DNA of 64,000 nucleotides from Nephrocerus scutellatus (taxonomy: Eukaryota > Arthropoda > Insecta > Diptera > Pipunculidae), in NCBI GenBank assembly GCA_947095585.1, contig OX352763.1, positions 109,037,908 to 109,101,907 on the forward strand, in the 5' to 3' direction. Below are positions 3,521-47,579 of this stretch, piece by piece; within the stretch, counting starts at the first letter, position 1, and every line of letters begins with the position of its first letter. A program made the position numbers and the translations under genes. The notes beneath the pieces were generated by a model that did not search any database, had not been told where the DNA came from, and saw only the letters and a program-made list of their open reading frames with translations.

Positions 3521-5845
3521 GTAAATTAAAGATTTTTATTGTCCATTAACCATTACCATTAACCAATATAACAACAAATAAATGTCGTTGCATTAAGTAA
3601 TACAATGACACAGATAGTCTATCAGAGTTTATTGCTAATTCATTATATTATTTTTGAAACATTTCAATTCTCAATCAAAAAATACTGAATGACGTTTCAT
3701 TCTCTTTTAATTTTCTCCCATTAAAATAGATAGGGCAATATGTGCTAGAGCCGGTTGTTAACACACGCACCAATGACCAGCACCAAACAGGAGAAATATT
3801 TATATACGAACATTATAGGAAACTAGAGCAAGGATCACCTGTTGTTTTCACTTCAAATAACAATAATGCTAAATAAAATAATTTCCTTGTGTGGGCAAAA
3901 TGATGGAGTTATTGATAAAATGCACTTATGGAAAAAAAAAGAAAGAATGAATACAGAACGTATGTAATCATGTAAGAGGAAACACATTTTCTTGATGAGT
4001 CTGTATATAAGGTAATATTTGTTCTAAATATTATATGAGCAAAATTTTCGACTCGACTTCGCTGAGCGAGTGTAGTCGAGTCGAGTCAAGCTCATTTGAA
4101 CTCGACTATATGGTGTTGAAACGTAGTACCAGCTGGCTTCAACCCTTCATATAACTTAGATTCGATCGGATCATACTACGAAAGCTAAGGAATTTTCTAA
4201 TTTTGTGTTTGAAAAAAAAGTTCTACCTCAAAACCTGCCACACATTCTTAGCGTTTATAAGTGAATAAATATGGGTATAGAGTACATAATGTAGATGTAT
4301 TTCTATTTTACAAGAATTTGTGTATCAGTGAAAATTAAAATATAATTAAAATTATTAAAATAATAATATTATTTGCACTTCAAATTCTAGCAAAAATGAT
4401 TTCAAAATAAATTTGAGTTTAAAAATTAATATAAATCCGAGTAAAATTGTAAAGTGTAATGTAAACTTGAAGGTGTATGTATAAAACGTCGATTTCCTTG
4501 AGATTTGAACGAAAATAATGATCTAGAAATGGAAAAAAAAAATATTTTTTCCACCCGAAAAAACATGAAATGTCATTTAGATCAACTGAGATTGCTCCTA
4601 GAGTTGCTTTGTTTACCCCGAAAGAATTCGTCCGTTCTAAGTGTTTTAAATTTTTGACAGTTATGTTTTTTGTGTCTTTTAAGTTTTACTATATAATGTG
4701 TTTCTTTCTATTGGCTTTTAAAAAGACAAATGATCATTTTACAGATCGTTCGACAGTAAAGAATGTTTTGTGTTTTGCTTTTGCCTACGTTATTTTCATT
4801 TTGCTATTTTCCTATTAAAAATTTGTGAATTTGGATATTGACAGTGGATTATTTTCTCTGAAAATGGAATGCGTATTTCCAATTTAATTTTAAATATGTA
4901 TTTATAAATGTTTCAAATTACATAAGTATTCGAAGTAATTGTGAATACTTTGGAAATTGTTTTGTGTTTTAATATTTAACTACCTATATATTTGTGTCTA
5001 TTTATTTAAAATGGTTTTTTCTTTGTTTGTGGTGAATATCATTTGTAATATTTTTTCATGACTATTGTAGTTTGAAGTTGAGCTTAATTTAGGTTTTGTT
5101 TTGTGTGTATATATTTTATGGTTTTTTTTAATTACATAAATTTAATTTAATTTAAATGCAATTCGTTTCGTTTGAATTTTTTTCTTATTTGCATCTGCAC
5201 AGCAGAAATTTATGTGTATTTATGTACGAGTATGCGTTTCATTTGAATTATTTTATTGAGATTTTTGGATTTTTAGCAATAATTATTGTTTATATATTAA
5301 GCTGTCAGATTTGTATGTTGGTTAAATATCAAATAATAAGAGGAAAATCTATAAAATTATTTATACAGAAATTATAAATAATGTTTTACATGTATAACAG
5401 TTTTGATTTAGACTTTAGGAGAGTGGTTTACACAATAGTGTTGCTTTGCCAGTAATAGTAGCAGTAGTACGAACTGTCAAAAGTATAACACACCAAAAAA
5501 AATTTTTGGTTAAGAAATATTTAACCAAATTTTTAGTTATAATTCTCAACCAGAGTCGACTTTTAAAAATTATATATGGATAAGTTGGCAAACATATGAA
5601 ACAAAAAATTTACCAAAATAAGGTTAGTTTTTGCTGTTGCTTTAATCAGCCGTTAACCACAAAAAATACCTAACTCATTTTTTTGAAAGCAATATAGCAT
5701 TAGTTGATGTAAGCGACATGCGAATTGTATGCTGTGAACATAATGTGATTTTTGTCAGTTTCGTCAAATGTTCGTTAACTTACGTGGGAGTGAGGCGGCT
5801 GACAGACCATGGGTAACTTATAAATGTGAAAAATTAGCTAAGCGC
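3521..5845. other. AT-rich non-coding stretch
   Basis: No protein-like frame. Around 4050-4110 the GAGCGAGTGTAGTCGAGTCGAG motif makes a short imperfect palindrome, and at 5500-5535 an A/T-rich inverted repeat built on TTGGTTAA/TTAACCAA is visible. Nothing else stands out. Confidence 0.5.
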
Positions 5846-6148
5846 GCTCTCACAATGAAAAACTTAAGACTTAAGAGTTACAGAAATGTATGGACTTTGG
5901 TTTTGACAAAAAAAAAGTTCTGCTCGTTGATAGTTTACATACTTTTGAAGACATACAAATGAAGTTCGCAACATTTTAAAACGGATGTGAACTATTTTTT
6001 GTTCTTGTTGTTATGTCTTCAATATTATAACAATGGGTTTGTCACTATTTGAAACTTTGCTGCCGCAACAAAAAACTTTATGTATTCATTGTGCTCTTCT
6101 AAGGTTTAAGTTTTAAGTCTAAAGTGCTAAGTTTTTCACTGTGAGAGC
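5846..6148. mobile_element. Candidate MITE with terminal inverted repeats
   Basis: Positions 5846-5866 (GCTCTCACAATGAAAAACTTA) and 6128-6148 are inverted copies with one mismatch in 21 bases. The similarity continues imperfectly inward through AAGACTTAAGAG-like sequence and outward through TTAGCT. The 303-base interior has no coding capacity. Length and terminal repeats fit a non-autonomous DNA transposon; I could not identify a clear target-site duplication. Confidence 0.55.
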
Positions 6149-6235
6149 AGGATTAGCTTTTCGCTCGGTTTTGACATAAGAATAAGCCCACTGCTGCGTA
6201 TTATAGTTAAGCTTTAAGGCCAATATATTGAAAGC

Positions 6236-6397
6236 AAAAAACAGCCTTAAACAAATGGCGCTGCATTTCAACTTTTTACAAACCGAAATCAAGGACATTA
6301 ATAATAATATTCGATCGTGGTCACAGCTAAGGCATATTACTGCAAACCGGGAGCGTTGGAAGGGTCTAGTTGTGGCCCTATACTCCAGGAGGAGTTA
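6236..6397 (+). pseudogene. 3'-terminal fragment of a non-LTR retrotransposon ORF
   Basis: One frame reads RSWSQLRHITANRERWKGL followed by VVALYSRRS and a TAA at 6395. It resembles the C-terminus of RTE-type LINE polyproteins, where W..LK..A.NR.RWR..V.ALCS precedes the stop; the piece at 48041-48230 in this window has the same pattern. Only the last ~50 codons remain. Confidence 0.5.
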
Positions 6398-7515
6398 AAT
6401 TGTACGAACTCAACCCAAGTACAATACGAAAGCAAAACTACCATTATGCATCGAACTCTCAAACTCAAATCAAAACTGTTATAAAGTATTTGACAGAAAT
6501 TTTACAAAAAGATTTTTTTACTGCTAGATTACCTGAACTACGTACTATTGTAAACTGACTCTTTGTTTGTGTGTGTGTTTCTGTGTTTACGTATATGTGT
6601 TTTTCTTTACTTTTCACTTTATTGTTTCTCTATATTTCATTTCGGATACTGTTTCGTTTTCGGTTTTGTAGTTTTTTTTTTGTTTATTGACGTCACAAAA
6701 ATTCAAGTTCGCTTTTTCGATCGGAATTAATAATAATAACAATTTCATTTGTTTTGTTTCTTTGTTGTTGCGCAAAAAACTAACATTTATAAGTATTTAA
6801 CTCTGTGCAACTGTATGGAAATGTTTTATACATATACCACTTTTTTGTTTTGTTAATAAATACATAACATACATACCTACATAACATACATTTATAACAA
6901 TACGGGATTTGGTCATGTTGTTTTTGGTTTTTCGTTTGTCTTTTGTTGTTGAACTGAGCAGAATTATCGAAGTCAATGTAAATAATTAAAGTCACTAATT
7001 AATTTATTTATTCCATAGTAGTTTACAAAATTAATTTTCGTATAGCATGTTTTTTAAACGCCTGAATAGCGAATTAATTAATTATTTCAAAATTGCAAGT
7101 AATTTTCGCAATTGCTTGTGATTTGGCAATTCCGCCATATTCTTAACTAGGGAATATGAAAACCAAACTCGACAATCGATATTCGATAATCGACACAACG
7201 AGTATCGCTGCGATAGACTTCGATAATTTTGCTCTCCGTTTGCCGTTCTCCATGTACTGTTTTTTGTTTTTCGTATGGCTATTGGCTACAATATGTGTGT
7301 TTGTTCGTGGTGTTGCTGATGAAGGAGTTTGATTTTGTTTTCAATTTAATTATTATTATTAATACACGTTGACAATAACTCCTGTAATGTGTTTGTTGAG
7401 CTCTATAGAAAAATGTCTATCCTTGGCCACAAACACTTTTATAGTTGTAATAGTTTATATTTGTCAACGTTTGAAGAGGCGGACATCATTTTTATGACGT
7501 CTCTAAAAATCATAC
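6398..7515. other. Non-coding flank or intron downstream of the Tweety extension
   Basis: AT-rich sequence with no long frame. It follows the minus-strand GT donor at 7515, so it would be intron if the second readthrough extension is spliced. A weak minus-strand acceptor (CAG before 7256) would open a 37-codon frame ending in TAA at 7145-7143 in the right phase, but it has no pyrimidine tract. The 7160-7240 segment is rich in ATCGATA/TATCG words. Confidence 0.4.
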
Positions 7516-8181
7516 CTTGAATGTTTTCTCACGACGATGCCGTTGATTGTTGTGATGTACACCGCCATTTGCTGTAGGAAAAGGTGGTGGTGGTGCATTA
7601 CTGTCAAAGCGATCACCTCCACGATCATATTCAGTAGGGTTGCCACGTTCACGTTGTCTATCACGATCTCGGTCACGATGCTCTCTGCTGTCACGATCCC
7701 GTTCTCGATAATCTCGATCACGTTGCCTATGATGCTCGCCTGAGTTATGTGACTGCTGTTTGTTGGTGGCCGCAATATGCGATCGATGATGTGGCTGATG
7801 CTTCAAACGAACCTCGTAGTCTCGAGCGTCAGCAACATCAAATGTCGCTGACCGCTTCGGATAGTATTCATCGTATTCATGATCATCGGCACATGTTCCA
7901 GTATTGCTACTGGACGATGCATGATATGACAAGGAACGTTTGGCGTACGACTTTTGATGATGTTGCTGATGCTGTGAGACGATCGAGGAGGCGTTCGTTG
8001 CTCTTTCTGTATGTACTGCTGCTGATGCCACTGCTGACGATGATGTTGCTGATGTTGCGATTGTTGCTGGGGCTGTTGCAATCGTTGCGCTTGTTGCTGC
8101 TTTGTGACCAACACCATTCGAAACGATTGCATTTGCGGAACAACGTCGAATATCAACGCCACCACCGCAGCAGGCACACTC
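7516..8181 (-). CDS. Tweety C-terminal readthrough extension 2 (222 codons to a GT donor)
   Basis: After the TAG the same frame runs 222 codons, starting ECACCGGVDIRRCS and passing through an Ala/Thr/Ser-rich part, HQQHHQKSYAKRSLSYHASS, acidic DDHEYDEYYPKR, and an RDRDYRERDRD/REHRDRDRDRQRER repeat to RREKTFK. It meets a splice donor (AAG/GTATGA at 7515) in phase 0; unspliced it ends GTA TGA. A further exon would be needed below 7515. In the first third another frame gives a Gln-rich peptide (7803-8177), so an assembly frameshift instead of a second readthrough is possible. Confidence 0.5.
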
Positions 8182-10044
8182 CTACAATTCCGTCACTGAA
8201 TAGAGATCACTATTTGCGTGTGAGCCGCCGCGCTTAAGTGACCGGTAGTACATGGTCTGTGGATCGTACGCCGCTTGCTGATGTTTGCTGGAATGATGTT
8301 GCTGCTGTTGCTGATGGTGATAGGCCGAGTTGGCAGCACTATTGCTTGTTGCCGATGAATGATGATGTGTCGCCGTCGACACCATATTCGATGGTTGTTG
8401 TCTCTGCTGCTGCTGATACTGTTGTTGATGGGACGAGTTGTAGGCTAATTGCTGATCGTGTTGCTGCTTTGCATTTGTTTTGTATTGTTCCATGTATGAG
8501 ATACCACCAGGAGATTTGTTGTTAAAGCCGCTGCTGCTGCTGTCTAAAGTTTCACTGCGGCGTGGCCGTTCTGAACGCTCAATACGCTCAGAATTCTGAC
8601 GTTCATAGCCGAAAGAGCTGTGAGTTGATGACTGCTGCTGCAGTTGCTGATGCTGGCGCAAGTTCGACGATTTTGAGGGCAAGGTCTGCATGTTGGAGGC
8701 ATGCGAACGAGATGCTCGCGAAGAGGAGGCGTCTTCTTTGTGGCGATTCTTAGGCGGTAAGGACGGTGGTGTTATCTTGTTACTTGGTTGCTGTTCCTGC
8801 TGATAACGTTCTTCGGCTGATCTCCGAGGAGCATTGGCGGCGCTTGCGATCTGCATTTTCTGCGAAGATGGCCGCTGCAACGAACGATACTGGTTGAGAT
8901 TGGCAGCGCATAGAGGTTGCTGAGAGATTTTCGATGACTGAGACTGCGTATGTTGGGGAATATCGGGAAGCGGCTGATTAACAATTGAAGAGCTGGTGGC
9001 TTTTATTTGTCGTTCTCGATCTCGATCTCGATCACGTTCTCTTTCTCTATCTCTGATTCCTCCTTCTCGTGTTCGTATTTCACGAATAGAATTTTGGTGA
9101 TGTTGCTGTTGTTGTAGCTGTTGTTGTTGTTGCTGTTGCAGCTGTTGTGGTTGTTGTTGTAGTTGATGTTGCTGTAGTTGTTGAGGAACAGGTGGTGGCG
9201 GTGGCAGCGGTTGAGCTGGTGGTGTTACATGGTAGCCCGACGTATCGATGCTGTATATTGAAGATGGCGGTATTACATGCGTCGTCGCCGGAGCTGCGGT
9301 GATTTGTTGCGGAGGCGGTGGTGGAGGAGGTTGCGGATATGGCAGCTGCTGTTGCGTTTCATGGTATTGCTGTTGGCGTTGATACTGTTGCTGTTGTTGC
9401 TGTTGCAGTTGCTCCTTGGCAATAGAACTGCCCACACCAGTTGTCCCAGGAATGTCAGTGAATGTATTCGTTGTCTTCTTTGTCACAATTGGTCCGCTAA
9501 TGGCGCTGCCGTTACCGTTACCGCCTGTTGTTACCGCAGTCGTTGTGTATGGTGGAACGCAATCTGGTTGATTGAAATAGTCCTTGGAAACGGTAGCTAT
9601 CGAAGGTGTCTTAGCACTACGCAAATTCGGTGAAGGACTTGCGCCCTTCAGTGAGCCACCATACCGTCCGACATGTCGAAGTGTTGCGCATTTGTTCGCC
9701 GACGCCGCAGCAACAATATTCAAATGATTATTGCCTCTTACCGCTTTTGGCCCGATACTTATATACTTTGGATCGAAACGATTGAAACTGTTATTTGTGA
9801 CATCTCGGGGATCCTTGGAATCGCTGCCGCACAAGTCAATGCCATCAGCAATTGATCCGCCGATGCCACCGCCGCCGCCTACGCTAACGCCTCCAATTGA
9901 CTTGCATATTGTGTGTGCTGTTGCATGAGATGAAATGGCCGATTTAAGTGATGATGCTGATGAACGAGGTAATGTTGCTGACGCGAAGATATTCTTCATT
10001 GACGAACTGCTGCTGCCTGCATTTAAGTTGCAGGCAAGCGATTC
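8182..10044 (-). CDS. Tweety C-terminal readthrough extension 1 (620 codons to TAG)
   Basis: In frame with the canonical exon, 620 codons are open from the TGA to TAG at 8184-8182. The first 15 read ESLACNLNAGSSSSS; the Met at 9999 is simply the first ATG and is not needed as a start. The sequence is low complexity but protein-like: Gly, Pro and Gln runs (QLQQQQQQQYQRQQQ, PPPPPPP), an RDRERERDRDRDRER tract, SH3-ligand-like PPSLPPK, and a tail ending MYYRSLKRGGSHANSDLYSV then TEL. No domain is recognised; it is probably disordered and cytosolic. Alternatives are a separate overlapping gene or a chance-open CAG-rich 3' UTR, but 620 stop-free codons linked in phase to the exon argue for readthrough. 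Confidence 0.7.
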   Translation of the reverse strand, partial: ESLACNLNAGSSSSSMKNIFASATLPRSSASSLKSAISSHATAHTICKSIGGVSVGGGGGIGGSIADGIDLCGSDSKDPRDVTNNSFNRFDPKYISIGPKAVRGNNHLNIVAAASANKCATLRHVGRYGGSLKGASPSPNLRSAKTPSIATVSKDYFNQPDCVPPYTTTAVTTGGNGNGSAISGPIVTKKTTNTFTDIPGTTGVGSSIAKEQLQQQQQQQYQRQQQYHETQQQLPYPQPPPPPPPQQITAAPATTHVIPPSSIYSIDTSGYHVTPPAQPLPPPPPVPQQLQQHQLQQQPQQLQQQQQQQLQQQQHHQNSIREIRTREGGIRDRERERDRDRDRERQIKATSSSIVNQPLPDIPQHTQSQSSKISQQPLCAANLNQYRSLQRPSSQKMQIASAANAPRRSAEERYQQEQQPSNKITPPSLPPKNRHKEDASSSRASRSHASNMQTLPSKSSNLRQHQQLQQQSSTHSSFGYERQNSERIERSERPRRSETLDSSSSGFNNKSPGGISYMEQYKTNAKQQHDQQLAYNSSHQQQYQQQQRQQPSNMVSTATHHHSSATSNSAANSAYHHQQQQQHHSSKHQQAAYDPQTMYYRSLKRGGSHANSDLYSVTEL

Positions 10045-10047
10045 TCA
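10014..10047 (-). promoter_or_regulatory. Readthrough candidate: TGA plus downstream RNA hairpin
   Basis: The minus-strand RNA reads UAC UGA G, then a spacer GAATCGCT (8 nt), then TGCCTGCA-ACTTAAA-TGCAGGCA: a perfect 8-bp stem with a 7-nt loop (10036-10029 paired with 10021-10014). A stable stem about 8 nt after a stop is the known arrangement in cellular and viral stop-codon readthrough signals. The base after the stop is G, less favourable than C. Confidence 0.65.
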
Positions 10048-10177
10048 GTAAAAGTCATTGGATTCGAGCGTTTTACACTGTTTGCTGAGTGTGGCATATT
10101 TGCCGTTGTTGGGACCGGCCAGATATGCCGATTGCTGATGGGAGGGCAGACGTCCAAGGGTATGATGGCCGGAGTTT
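10045..10177 (-). CDS. Tweety last canonical exon, ends in TGA
   Basis: The acceptor GTCTTCACAG ends at 10178. The first base completes Arg, then 43 codons: NSGHHTLGRLPSHQQSAYLA through GPNNGKYATLSKQCKTLE to SNDFY and a TGA at 10047-10045. I judge this conserved-looking, Tyr-containing tail to be the normal C-terminus of the fly Tweety protein, from memory of the family rather than from an alignment. The same frame stays open after the TGA (see next entries). Confidence 0.85.
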
Positions 10178-10560
10178 CTGTGAAGACAGACAAGAAAAAA
10201 CGAAAAGTTTATCAGCAAAAGTTTTGCCTGTTTGGCATAAGAGAAATGAATGAATTAAAGGAGTTTAGTTCGGGAAAGAATTGTCATGGATTACAATCCT
10301 GTGTTGCCTGACAACAATTTGCAAATTTCGAGAAATTCTTTTTGGATCTTTGAAAAAATAAAATAAAAATTGACAAAAAAGTAATAGAACGGATAAAAAT
10401 TAATGTCGCTCAAAATATCTAGAATAAATACAGGCCAACACTCATTGTTGTTTTTTTGAAGTAGAAATCCACAACTAATTTGTGAGTTTCGTATATTGGC
10501 AGCACTGTATCAAACAGCTGTCAATAAGGGTATGTGTCAAACAATTCAACATAAGCTGCA
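10178..10560. other. Intron sequence next to the last Tweety exon
   Basis: Part of the 5-kb GC-AG intron. AT-rich, no protein-like frame. Confidence 0.6.
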
Positions 10561-15204: not shown

Positions 15205-15220
15205 TTAATAAAAGCCATGC
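15205..15220 (-). CDS. Alternative short C-terminus (unspliced read-on, HGFY stop)
   Basis: Continuing past the GC donor gives codons for His-Gly-Phe-Tyr and a TAA. A minus-strand AATAAA at 14816-14811, about 390 bases on, could serve as poly(A) signal for such a transcript. This is inference; no transcript data are available here. Confidence 0.4.
15219..15220 (-). promoter_or_regulatory. Non-canonical GC splice donor
   Basis: The exon/intron junction reads ACAAG/GCATGG on the minus strand, paired with the CTTCACAG acceptor ending at 10178; intron length 5043 nt. GC-AG introns are a minor class in which weak U1 pairing often goes with alternative use. The call rests on phase (two bases plus one) and on the fit of the resulting protein. 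Confidence 0.65.
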
Positions 15221-15562
15221 CTTGTGCCATGCACCACAACATCATAACCAGGCGGTGGAGATGAGTTTCCATCACCACCACAACTAGCATTAGGAGTAGT
15301 GTTGTATGCCAACCCTGTTCTCATTGCAGCTGTGCCATTGCGGTGAGATCCCATCGGACCGAGAGTGCTGCCTCCTCCTACTACGCCACCACCGCTGCTG
15401 TTGCTGTTGGCAACCAAACTGTGCGCCTGTTGATGGTGCAGAAGTGTTCGATTGATTGTACCCGAAACGATGGGCGGCGCTGTCGATGCAATTGTTGGAT
15501 TCGGTGCCGACGAAACTGGGAAGAGCGGTGTCGTCTCGGATTTGTCGACTTCAATTGGATGT
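15221..15562 (-). CDS. Tweety exon: proximal cytosolic tail, ending at a GC donor
   Basis: The acceptor CATTTCAG ends at 15563. The first base completes a Lys codon, then HPIEVDKSETTPLFPVSSAP and a Ser/Asn/Gly-rich tail ending PPPGYDVVVHGT plus two bases. No GT downstream has the phase (two bases over) needed for the next exon. ACAAG followed by GCATGG does, and yields HGT-R-NSGHHTL. If not spliced here, the frame adds R-HGFY and stops at TAA 15207-15205. Confidence 0.8.
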
Positions 15563-17667: not shown

Positions 17668-17940
17668 TTCTTTGTTAAATAAATCCACGCATGCGAATCG
17701 GCATACACCAGTATTGTCAGCAAAAAAGAGGTCAACAGACCGGCGACCATCATCAGACTTAGGCCAAGTAGACCACCACCGCAGAGTCCCCTCAAAGCTT
17801 CGGCATAATGTTTATCAATAGCGCGACGATCAAGCGTCGCCGATAGCACTGTCAGATTACGTTTCGTCTCCTCCAGATCCATGTCCATGCGTTCGAGTGT
17901 TGAACGAATATCAATTCGTGGGTATGCCTCTTGGCTCATT
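17668..17940 (-). CDS. Tweety exon: end of loop 2 and TM5
   Basis: The acceptor CCATTCCAG ends at 17941 and the donor GTGAGT begins at 17667. The first base completes an Arg codon; two bases are left over at the end. The product has a helical loop (IDIRSTLERMDMDLEETKRN), the family signature HYAEALRGLCGGGLLGL, and a hydrophobic TM5 (LSLMMVAGLLTSFLLTILVY) followed by the cytosolic AWIYLTKK. Exon order and phases agree with both neighbours. Confidence 0.93.
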
Positions 17941-46760: not shown

Positions 46761-46888
46761 TCCAAAGTTTTAAGGGCATACAATAGTGTACTAAATGAGA
46801 AATTACGCACACTCAGTATAACATTATAACATGCTCTAAAAATTTCGAATACGCTATACAGTGCTAGGCTGTGCTGAATACGCTGAAT

Positions 46889-47150
46889 ACAAACAAACAA
46901 GCAAACAAACAAACAAACAAACAAATAAACAAACAAACAAACAAACAAACAAACAAACAAACAAACAAACAAACAAACAAACAAACAAACAAACAAACAA
47001 ACAAACAAACAAACAAACAAACAAACAAACAAACAAACAAACAAACAAACAAACAAACAAACGAACAAACAAACAAACAAACAAACAAACAAACAAACAA
47101 ACAAACAAACAAACAAACAAACATACGAACAAACAAACAGAAAAACAAAC
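46889..47150. repeat. (AAAC)n microsatellite, about 260 bp
   Basis: Roughly 60 nearly perfect AAAC tetranucleotides with a few point changes. Because 4 and 3 are coprime all six frames stay open, so the long frames here mean nothing. Confidence 0.98.
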
Positions 47151-47579
47151 AGACAGACGAAAAAAACAATAGGATGCATCACACTGCGGCTGCTGTCCCC
47201 CTTTCACGTCAATGGTTTTGCTGCTAGCATATAGGGCAATCCGAGCTTTCTTTGTCCCTTAATTCTATATTCGACTTCCAGCTGAGTTTCCTGTCTAGGA
47301 TTACGCCGAGATATTTTGCTTTTGAGGTAAACGTGACCATTGAGCTTGGGCAGTGCAAAGTCCGGTATTTTGGAATTAGTGGTGAAAAGTACCATTTCAG
47401 TTTTCCCAGAGTTAACCGCCAGGCCACAACCGGTAGCTCAGGAGCTAACCCTGCCTAGAGCCCTTTTCATGACCTCACTATACACGGAAGGGTATTATCC
47501 TGACACAAGCATCACCATGGCGACTACATACGATACAGCTTTCGTCCCATCCATTTTAAGTGTCCTGAGGACCTTTTTT

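Follow-up and report, generated by a model that had tools for sequence, protein, structure and literature searches.

A conserved 620-codon open frame behind the stop codon of tweety-2 in the fly Nephrocerus scutellatus, and its probable translation by stop-codon readthrough

Does the tweety-2 gene of the fly Nephrocerus scutellatus end where its reading frame meets the first stop codon, or is the long open frame that follows also part of the protein? The window analysed here (the whole stretch of 64,000 nucleotides of contig OX352763.1) carries on its minus strand the 3' half of a tweety gene. An initial annotation, made from the letters alone, described a Tweety-family gene that ends normally in a TGA at 10047-10045 and whose frame then stays open for 620 codons, 10044-8185, up to a TAG at 8184-8182. 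These coordinates proved exact; a second in-frame segment (8181-7513), a stem-loop at 10044-10004 and the paralogue tty are additions to that description. We examined the gene, the conservation of the open frame in other Diptera and in the paralogue tty, and the routes by which a ribosome might reach it.

The gene, its stop codon and the open frame

The features at the 3' end of the gene are as follows.

17668..17940, minus strand: tweety coding exon (MSQEAYPRIDI...AWIYLTKK)
15314..15562, minus strand: tweety coding exon (HPIEVDKSETTPLF...AMRTG) with a weak donor, AGG/GTTGGC (slash at the splice site); homologues are joined at the same place
10048..10177, minus strand: last canonical tweety-2 exon, C-terminal end KQCKTLESNDFY
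10045..10047, minus strand: stop 1, TGA followed by G, the proposed readthrough codon
8185..10044, minus strand: candidate readthrough extension 1, 620 codons
8182..8184, minus strand: stop 2, TAG followed by G, a possible second readthrough codon
7513..8181, minus strand: possible extension 2, 223 codons (ECACCGGGVD..., HEYDEY, ATFDVADARDYE)
7510..7512, minus strand: stop 3, TGA

Exons 17940-17668, 15562-15314 and 10177-10045 were spliced in phase, and the product matches the Pfam Tweety family (PF04906) at 7e-40, which bears out the family assignment made initially. The first base of the last exon precedes the codon start by one, and 8182-10177 read from its first base is in the wrong frame. 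Further tweety exon matches lie beyond the window on the same contig and strand, at C3:109.12 and 109.26 Mb. The canonical C-terminus reads LESNDFY-TGA. Because over roughly its last 41 residues the canonical protein shares 98% identity with Episyrphus balteatus tweety-2-like X1 and 93% with D. melanogaster CG3638 isoform F, and because a separate tty copy is present in the same genome at C3:14.45-14.46 Mb, the gene is, by sequence similarity, the orthologue of tweety-2/CG3638 rather than of tty.

The stop codon itself is real. We retrieved 77 arthropod proteins containing CKTL (tty and tweety-2 pooled), of which 75 stop exactly at the place of the TGA and two continue with W; an assembly error was thus ruled out. 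In the case of the exon before the last, the sequence can be read onward (window 15208-15313, minus strand) to ...SPPPGYDVVVHGTRHGFY-TAA. As a similar stretch is coding in proteins of Episyrphus, D. melanogaster, and Glossina, a distal donor (perhaps GC-AG, AAG/GCATGG) or a third C-terminus is likely at this position.

The openness of the frame behind the TGA is specific to that frame, since the other two frames of the same 620 codons hold 17 and 28 stops. These stops, together with the homologues described below, ruled out a chance open frame. When extension 1 was searched against its own genome, the one match at E<=0.001 was itself. Between the first and third stops a single AATAAA/ATTAAA occurs, at 9007 within the frame, and after the third stop such signals are found at 7350, 7012 and on; thus a single mRNA can carry all three segments. 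In the tail, no known domain was found by Pfam (one match, E 0.14, was under its cut-off). PDB profiles gave two matches (E 0.0031 and 0.039), to a chain of Nucleoporin 155 and to a fusion of huntingtin; both were taken as Q-rich composition and set aside. The tail is of low complexity with short conserved islands, consistent with the initial description of protein-like low-complexity sequence that might form a disordered scaffold.

Elsewhere in the window, a 376-codon open frame on the plus strand (16-1146) resembles, by eye, a Tc1/mariner-type transposase (MNRLTPEQRFQIVEIYF...), and a long LFVCLFVC repeat on the minus strand (46857-47203) is a simple-repeat reading frame.

Conservation of the tail in Diptera and in the paralogue tty

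A protein search with the 620 residues, in which the 7966 candidates sharing most words with extension 1 were scored, gave at least 48 homologues at E<=0.001. All counts that follow are among the matches listed. The ten homologues bearing an organism name are all from Diptera (Ceratitis, Musca, Drosophila, Teleopsis, Lutzomyia, Sergentomyia, Pseudolycoriella, Anopheles, Aedes, and Topomyia); the database labels three of them as tweety and seven as other or uncharacterised proteins, three of these 'partial'. An alignment of part of the homologues (22 rows) consists of long variable stretches and fixed islands. Judged by these comparisons, extension 1 is a conserved protein segment. It is kept as protein in flies, mosquitoes, and sandflies, where the initial annotation had allowed for frameshifted or unconstrained orthologues. 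The islands, with their occurrence among the 48 listed homologues, are given below.

9745..9786, minus strand: island FNRFDPKYISIGPK; FNRFDPKY.SIGPK in 38, and seen in the alignment
9676..9693, minus strand: island KCATLR (paralogue KCSTLR); KCATL in 43
8956..8988, minus strand: island SIVNQPLPDIP (paralogue SILNCPLPEIP); [ILV].NQPLP.IP in 45
8869..8919, minus strand: island QPLCAANLNQYRSLQRP (paralogue TLQRP, matched by eye); SLQRP in 40
8737..8769, minus strand: SH3-ligand-like PPSLPPKNRHK; PP.LPPK in 45
8185..8196, minus strand: C-terminal -VTEL, class I PDZ-ligand-like; Y[SN][VMA]TEL end in 38 (paralogue YAVTEL)

The SH3-ligand-like PPSLPPK had been pointed out at the outset, and its recurrence in nearly all listed homologues agrees with that; no counterpart of PPSLPPKNRHK was found in the first tail exon of tty. 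Class I PDZ ligands end in [S/T]-x-hydrophobic, and -VTEL conforms to this pattern by sequence. Among the ten listed homologues without the Y[SN][VMA]TEL end, six finish in unlike sequence and may be incomplete, and four break at DLYSV as if entering an intron. In these four (P0034, P0038, P0039, and P0040) the tail runs to DLYS and then to V[SR], as expected of a GTAAGT or GTAAGA donor; some flies may therefore have an intron just before -VTEL. In the viral and genome contig sets, which gave 39 and 122 pattern stretches, no fly DNA was confirmed.

The paralogue tty has a comparable arrangement. Its last exon ends LEANDFY-TGA, at the same place as in tweety-2, and is followed by 265 open codons that begin KSSAC. 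The first tail exon ends in a GTAAGT donor, in phase with a second tail exon that starts TLQRP and ends DESNYAVTEL-TAG, and the tty tail comes to 418 residues in total (L009 732-1525 and 3798-4257; C3:14462731 onward). Neither a genome search with extension 1 at E<=0.001 nor a profile HMM of extension 1 at E<=5 found the tty tail. Because the profile HMM failed to list it, we used short island matrices. On the first tail exon of tty, three of the nine matrices beat all 3000 shuffles, and the others were beaten by 71 to 2346 of the 3000. The tty frame holds KCSTLR, FDPKY, and SILNCPLPEIP, each of which was reached in 0 of 3000 shuffles. FDPKY and KC.TLR stand in swapped order in the two paralogues.

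Five islands, amounting to 34 codons, are common to both paralogues. Of their residues 27 match, 18 of them by different codons, and the differences fall on the first, second, and third codon positions in the ratio 9/2/25 (binomial p 1e-5), a count that is favoured towards third-position change by the selection of the islands for amino-acid likeness. The codon-level constraint that the initial annotation had proposed to look for was therefore seen in frame, against one paralogue in the same genome. Amino-acid conservation, the common end of nearly all CKTL proteins and this distribution over codon positions describe an in-frame extension under coding constraint after a stop at a conserved position. 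Since tty has a TGA at the same place, several of the islands, and the -AVTEL end, both the stop and the tail were probably present before the duplication that gave tty and tweety-2, as far as the two sequences tell.

Routes past the stop codon

Five sequences extend to the stop and have alike residues immediately behind it: ESLACNLNAGS in the window, ESPACNRSAGS in Topomyia, PACTLNNAGS in Lutzomyia, ESPACSIINAGS in P0008, and DPLACSAG in P0027. In these five, conservation sets in at the stop or at most two codons after it; ES[LP]AC..AGS is found in the window, Topomyia, and P0008, and pieces of it in Lutzomyia and P0027. Upstream of KNIF/KSIF, Ceratitis P0001 and Glossina P0049 carry residues unlike ES.AC, perhaps intron sequence. 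The conserved AC..AG peptide could partly reflect an RNA stem.

Such a stem is predicted directly behind the TGA:

10004..10044, minus strand: predicted stem-loop adjoining the TGA on its 3' side; GCCUGC/GCAGGC forms the core, 10015-10035

The core stem is perfect. The 51-nt fold at stop 1 has a minimum free energy of -21.0 and a z of -4.0, and none of 200 shuffles was as stable. As good a fold was obtained for 9 of the 3331 stop triplets on the same strand (stop 1 itself counted) and for 10 of 5000 synonymous recodings. Longer folds are less extreme (z -2.2 at 100 nt and -0.7 at 150 nt). A spot near 7867 in extension 2 folds equally strongly (-21.5). At stop 2 the 150-nt fold stands out (z -3.15; -1.5 at 51 nt and -0.7 at 100 nt), and behind the TGA of tty a comparable stem-loop is absent (-4.3 kcal/mol). 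Stops 1 and 2 alike are followed by G at +4, where a leakier stop would have C.

We consider stop-codon readthrough the best reading of extension 1, with a probability of about 0.8, because the post-stop peptide is kept, the first island has no conserved start ahead of it, and a strong stem-loop is predicted just behind the TGA. On this reading, most ribosomes would terminate at TGA 10047-10045 and yield the ordinary channel ending -SNDFY, and some, aided by the adjacent 3' stem-loop, would decode the TGA and translate another 620 codons. The cytosolic tail gained in this way would be mostly disordered, with short conserved binding islands and the SH3-ligand-like PPxLPPK, and its C-terminal -VTEL should bind class I PDZ domains. 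The rate of readthrough would then determine what proportion of the channel a scaffold could anchor.

The tail might instead be an alternative C-terminus, reached by splicing from an upstream donor or from the previous exon to an in-frame acceptor so that the TGA is removed, which we regard as unlikely. The initial annotation had held that transcripts bypassing the TGA, or starting inside the frame, would speak against readthrough; the internal start is unlikely on the evidence given below, whereas three database models do bypass the TGA: Glossina P0049 leaves the upstream sequence at ...HGFF, Pseudolycoriella P0011 at PNNG, and Polypedilum P0134 at YATL. These three models, however, make three different joins. 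At PNNG, tty has GTAAAT, a possible donor, but the window gene has GGCAAA there. Four GTs in the last exon were scored with a donor weight matrix: the donor at 10076 is weak (-1.9), although it outscores the used donor at 15313 (-2.9), and the other three lie between -7.1 and -5.3, where two used donors reach 4.1 and 1.4. Donor 10076 is phase-compatible, by hand, with moderate acceptors before 9956 and 9917, but a join at either would remove KNIFASATLPRS, a stretch that Ceratitis P0001 retains. For D. melanogaster, Tty is described with 520 and CG3638 with 205 additional C-terminal residues (PMC8273234, citing Campbell et al. 2000), so that a long Tty tail is reached in that species in some way, splicing being one candidate. 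Against splicing, conservation in the sequences that reach the stop begins with the first codons past it.

Translation from a downstream ATG, as a separate protein with its own mRNA or by an IRES or reinitiation, appears highly improbable. NCBI does list a protein of its own for the segment in Ceratitis, Musca, and Aedes, and the window extension has an in-frame ATG at codon 16, but upstream of that codon the residues are conserved in those sequences that extend so far. A Met before FNRFDPKY is found in none of five proteins (chosen as records that do not start with Met there; four reach the stop region), and the first Met stands at differing places in 13 others, which makes an internal start unlikely at the sequence level. 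A-to-I editing of UGA to UGG (Trp), with the long form made from edited mRNA, is just as improbable. The UGA lies within the predicted duplex, and P0008 and P0027 run across the stop position with W, which may stand for a TGA translated with code 4 or for a TGG, whether true or made by editing. However, an A that has G on its 5' side and is paired with U is a poor ADAR target; P0027 looks genomic, since its sequence seems to run through an intron; and editing would leave the TAG unexplained. The chance that the TGA is a selenocysteine codon is slighter still. The codon is a TGA, in an insect, but the tail lacks a redox-like character, a TAG serves as the second stop, and among five Rfam matches at E<=5 in 4000-10400 there was no SECIS element and none reached its gathering score.

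Under the readthrough reading, the frame may not end at the second stop. Extension 2 matches the tail of Glossina P0049 from its first residue (ECACCGGGVD; BLASTP E 9e-14; one species compared). As the P0049 model passes from MYS directly to ECACC, we infer that VTEL and the stop, 15 nt in the window, were modelled there as a tiny 'intron'. A protein search across the second stop gave nothing at E<=1e-3 in its size range, and P0049 lies outside that range. The match from the first residue makes double readthrough plausible, resting on one species: a smaller fraction of ribosomes may also pass TAG 8184-8182, which would bury -VTEL within a longer tail. Extension 2 ends near a donor-like AAG/GTATGA.

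Comparison with known systems and meaning for tweety channels

Readthrough is well represented in Diptera. FlyBase lists 328 genes with readthrough, including 22 with double readthrough, and the tails range from 4 to more than 1000 amino acids (as reported in PMC4528330), and the A. gambiae set holds 353 candidates (PMC5100048). The tweety-2 case resembles the genes treated in these two papers in its conserved in-frame extension after a TGA, of low complexity with islands, and double readthrough and long tails are also known there (PMC4528330); it differs in that the extension is common to two paralogues. CG3638 and tweety are absent from the main texts of PMC4528330, PMC5100048, PMC3840789, PMC4999894, and PMC13170385, and CG3638 may already be in one of the supplementary gene lists. 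A literature search pairing tweety or CG3638 with readthrough found, among the papers it covered, none joining both.

In the 2026 study of dfr/vvl (PMC13170385, which also cites headcase), stem stability is described as driving readthrough. The dfr/vvl gene has, and the window is predicted to have, a stable stem-loop no more than 60 nt downstream of the stop, and the window hairpin (41 nt, 7-nt loop, bulges of at most 2) fits the criteria stated in that paper as judged by hand. The dfr element, in contrast, lies at +10 to +58 behind a UAG (PMC13170385), whereas the window hairpin, predicted from sequence, begins at +4 behind a UGA, with its strong stem from about +9 (the stop being +1 to +3). 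A functional parallel, for which no homology is claimed, is AQP4ex, a membrane channel whose readthrough tail governs the place of its anchoring (described in PMC6444679 and PMC4132726). The AQP4 tail usually comprises 28 residues and requires UGA-CUAG, and its effect on localisation was shown in knockout mice, whereas for tweety-2 an effect on localisation is proposed from the tail.

The long C-terminus of D. melanogaster Tty is described in PMC8273234 as seemingly limited to that protein, in comparison with amphioxus and tunicate orthologues, and of unknown function. Like it, the tails reported here are long and hydrophilic on a tweety protein; here, homologous tails stand behind a TGA in both paralogues of another fly. 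The sequences thus suggest that the tweety tail is wider and older than the review's text states. In PMC11175612, CG3638 is described as a modulator of embryonic movement that is under repression by a microRNA.

We tentatively propose, at somewhat less than even odds, that readthrough of the tweety TGA predates the tty/tweety-2 duplication, has been kept in both genes and switches a PDZ anchor on an anion channel, and that a second readthrough, of the TAG, hides this anchor in higher flies. From the sequence, one gene probably makes both a plain and an anchored channel. If so, the presumed 3'UTR of CG3638, including ground for miRNA sites, would be largely coding. Tweety proteins are anion channels whose role in flies is unclear, and if the long form is real, fly work on the short protein alone covers part of the product. 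Two paralogues sharing stop and tail would show how long a readthrough signal persists, and would give a testable case of readthrough adding a scaffold-binding end to a channel.
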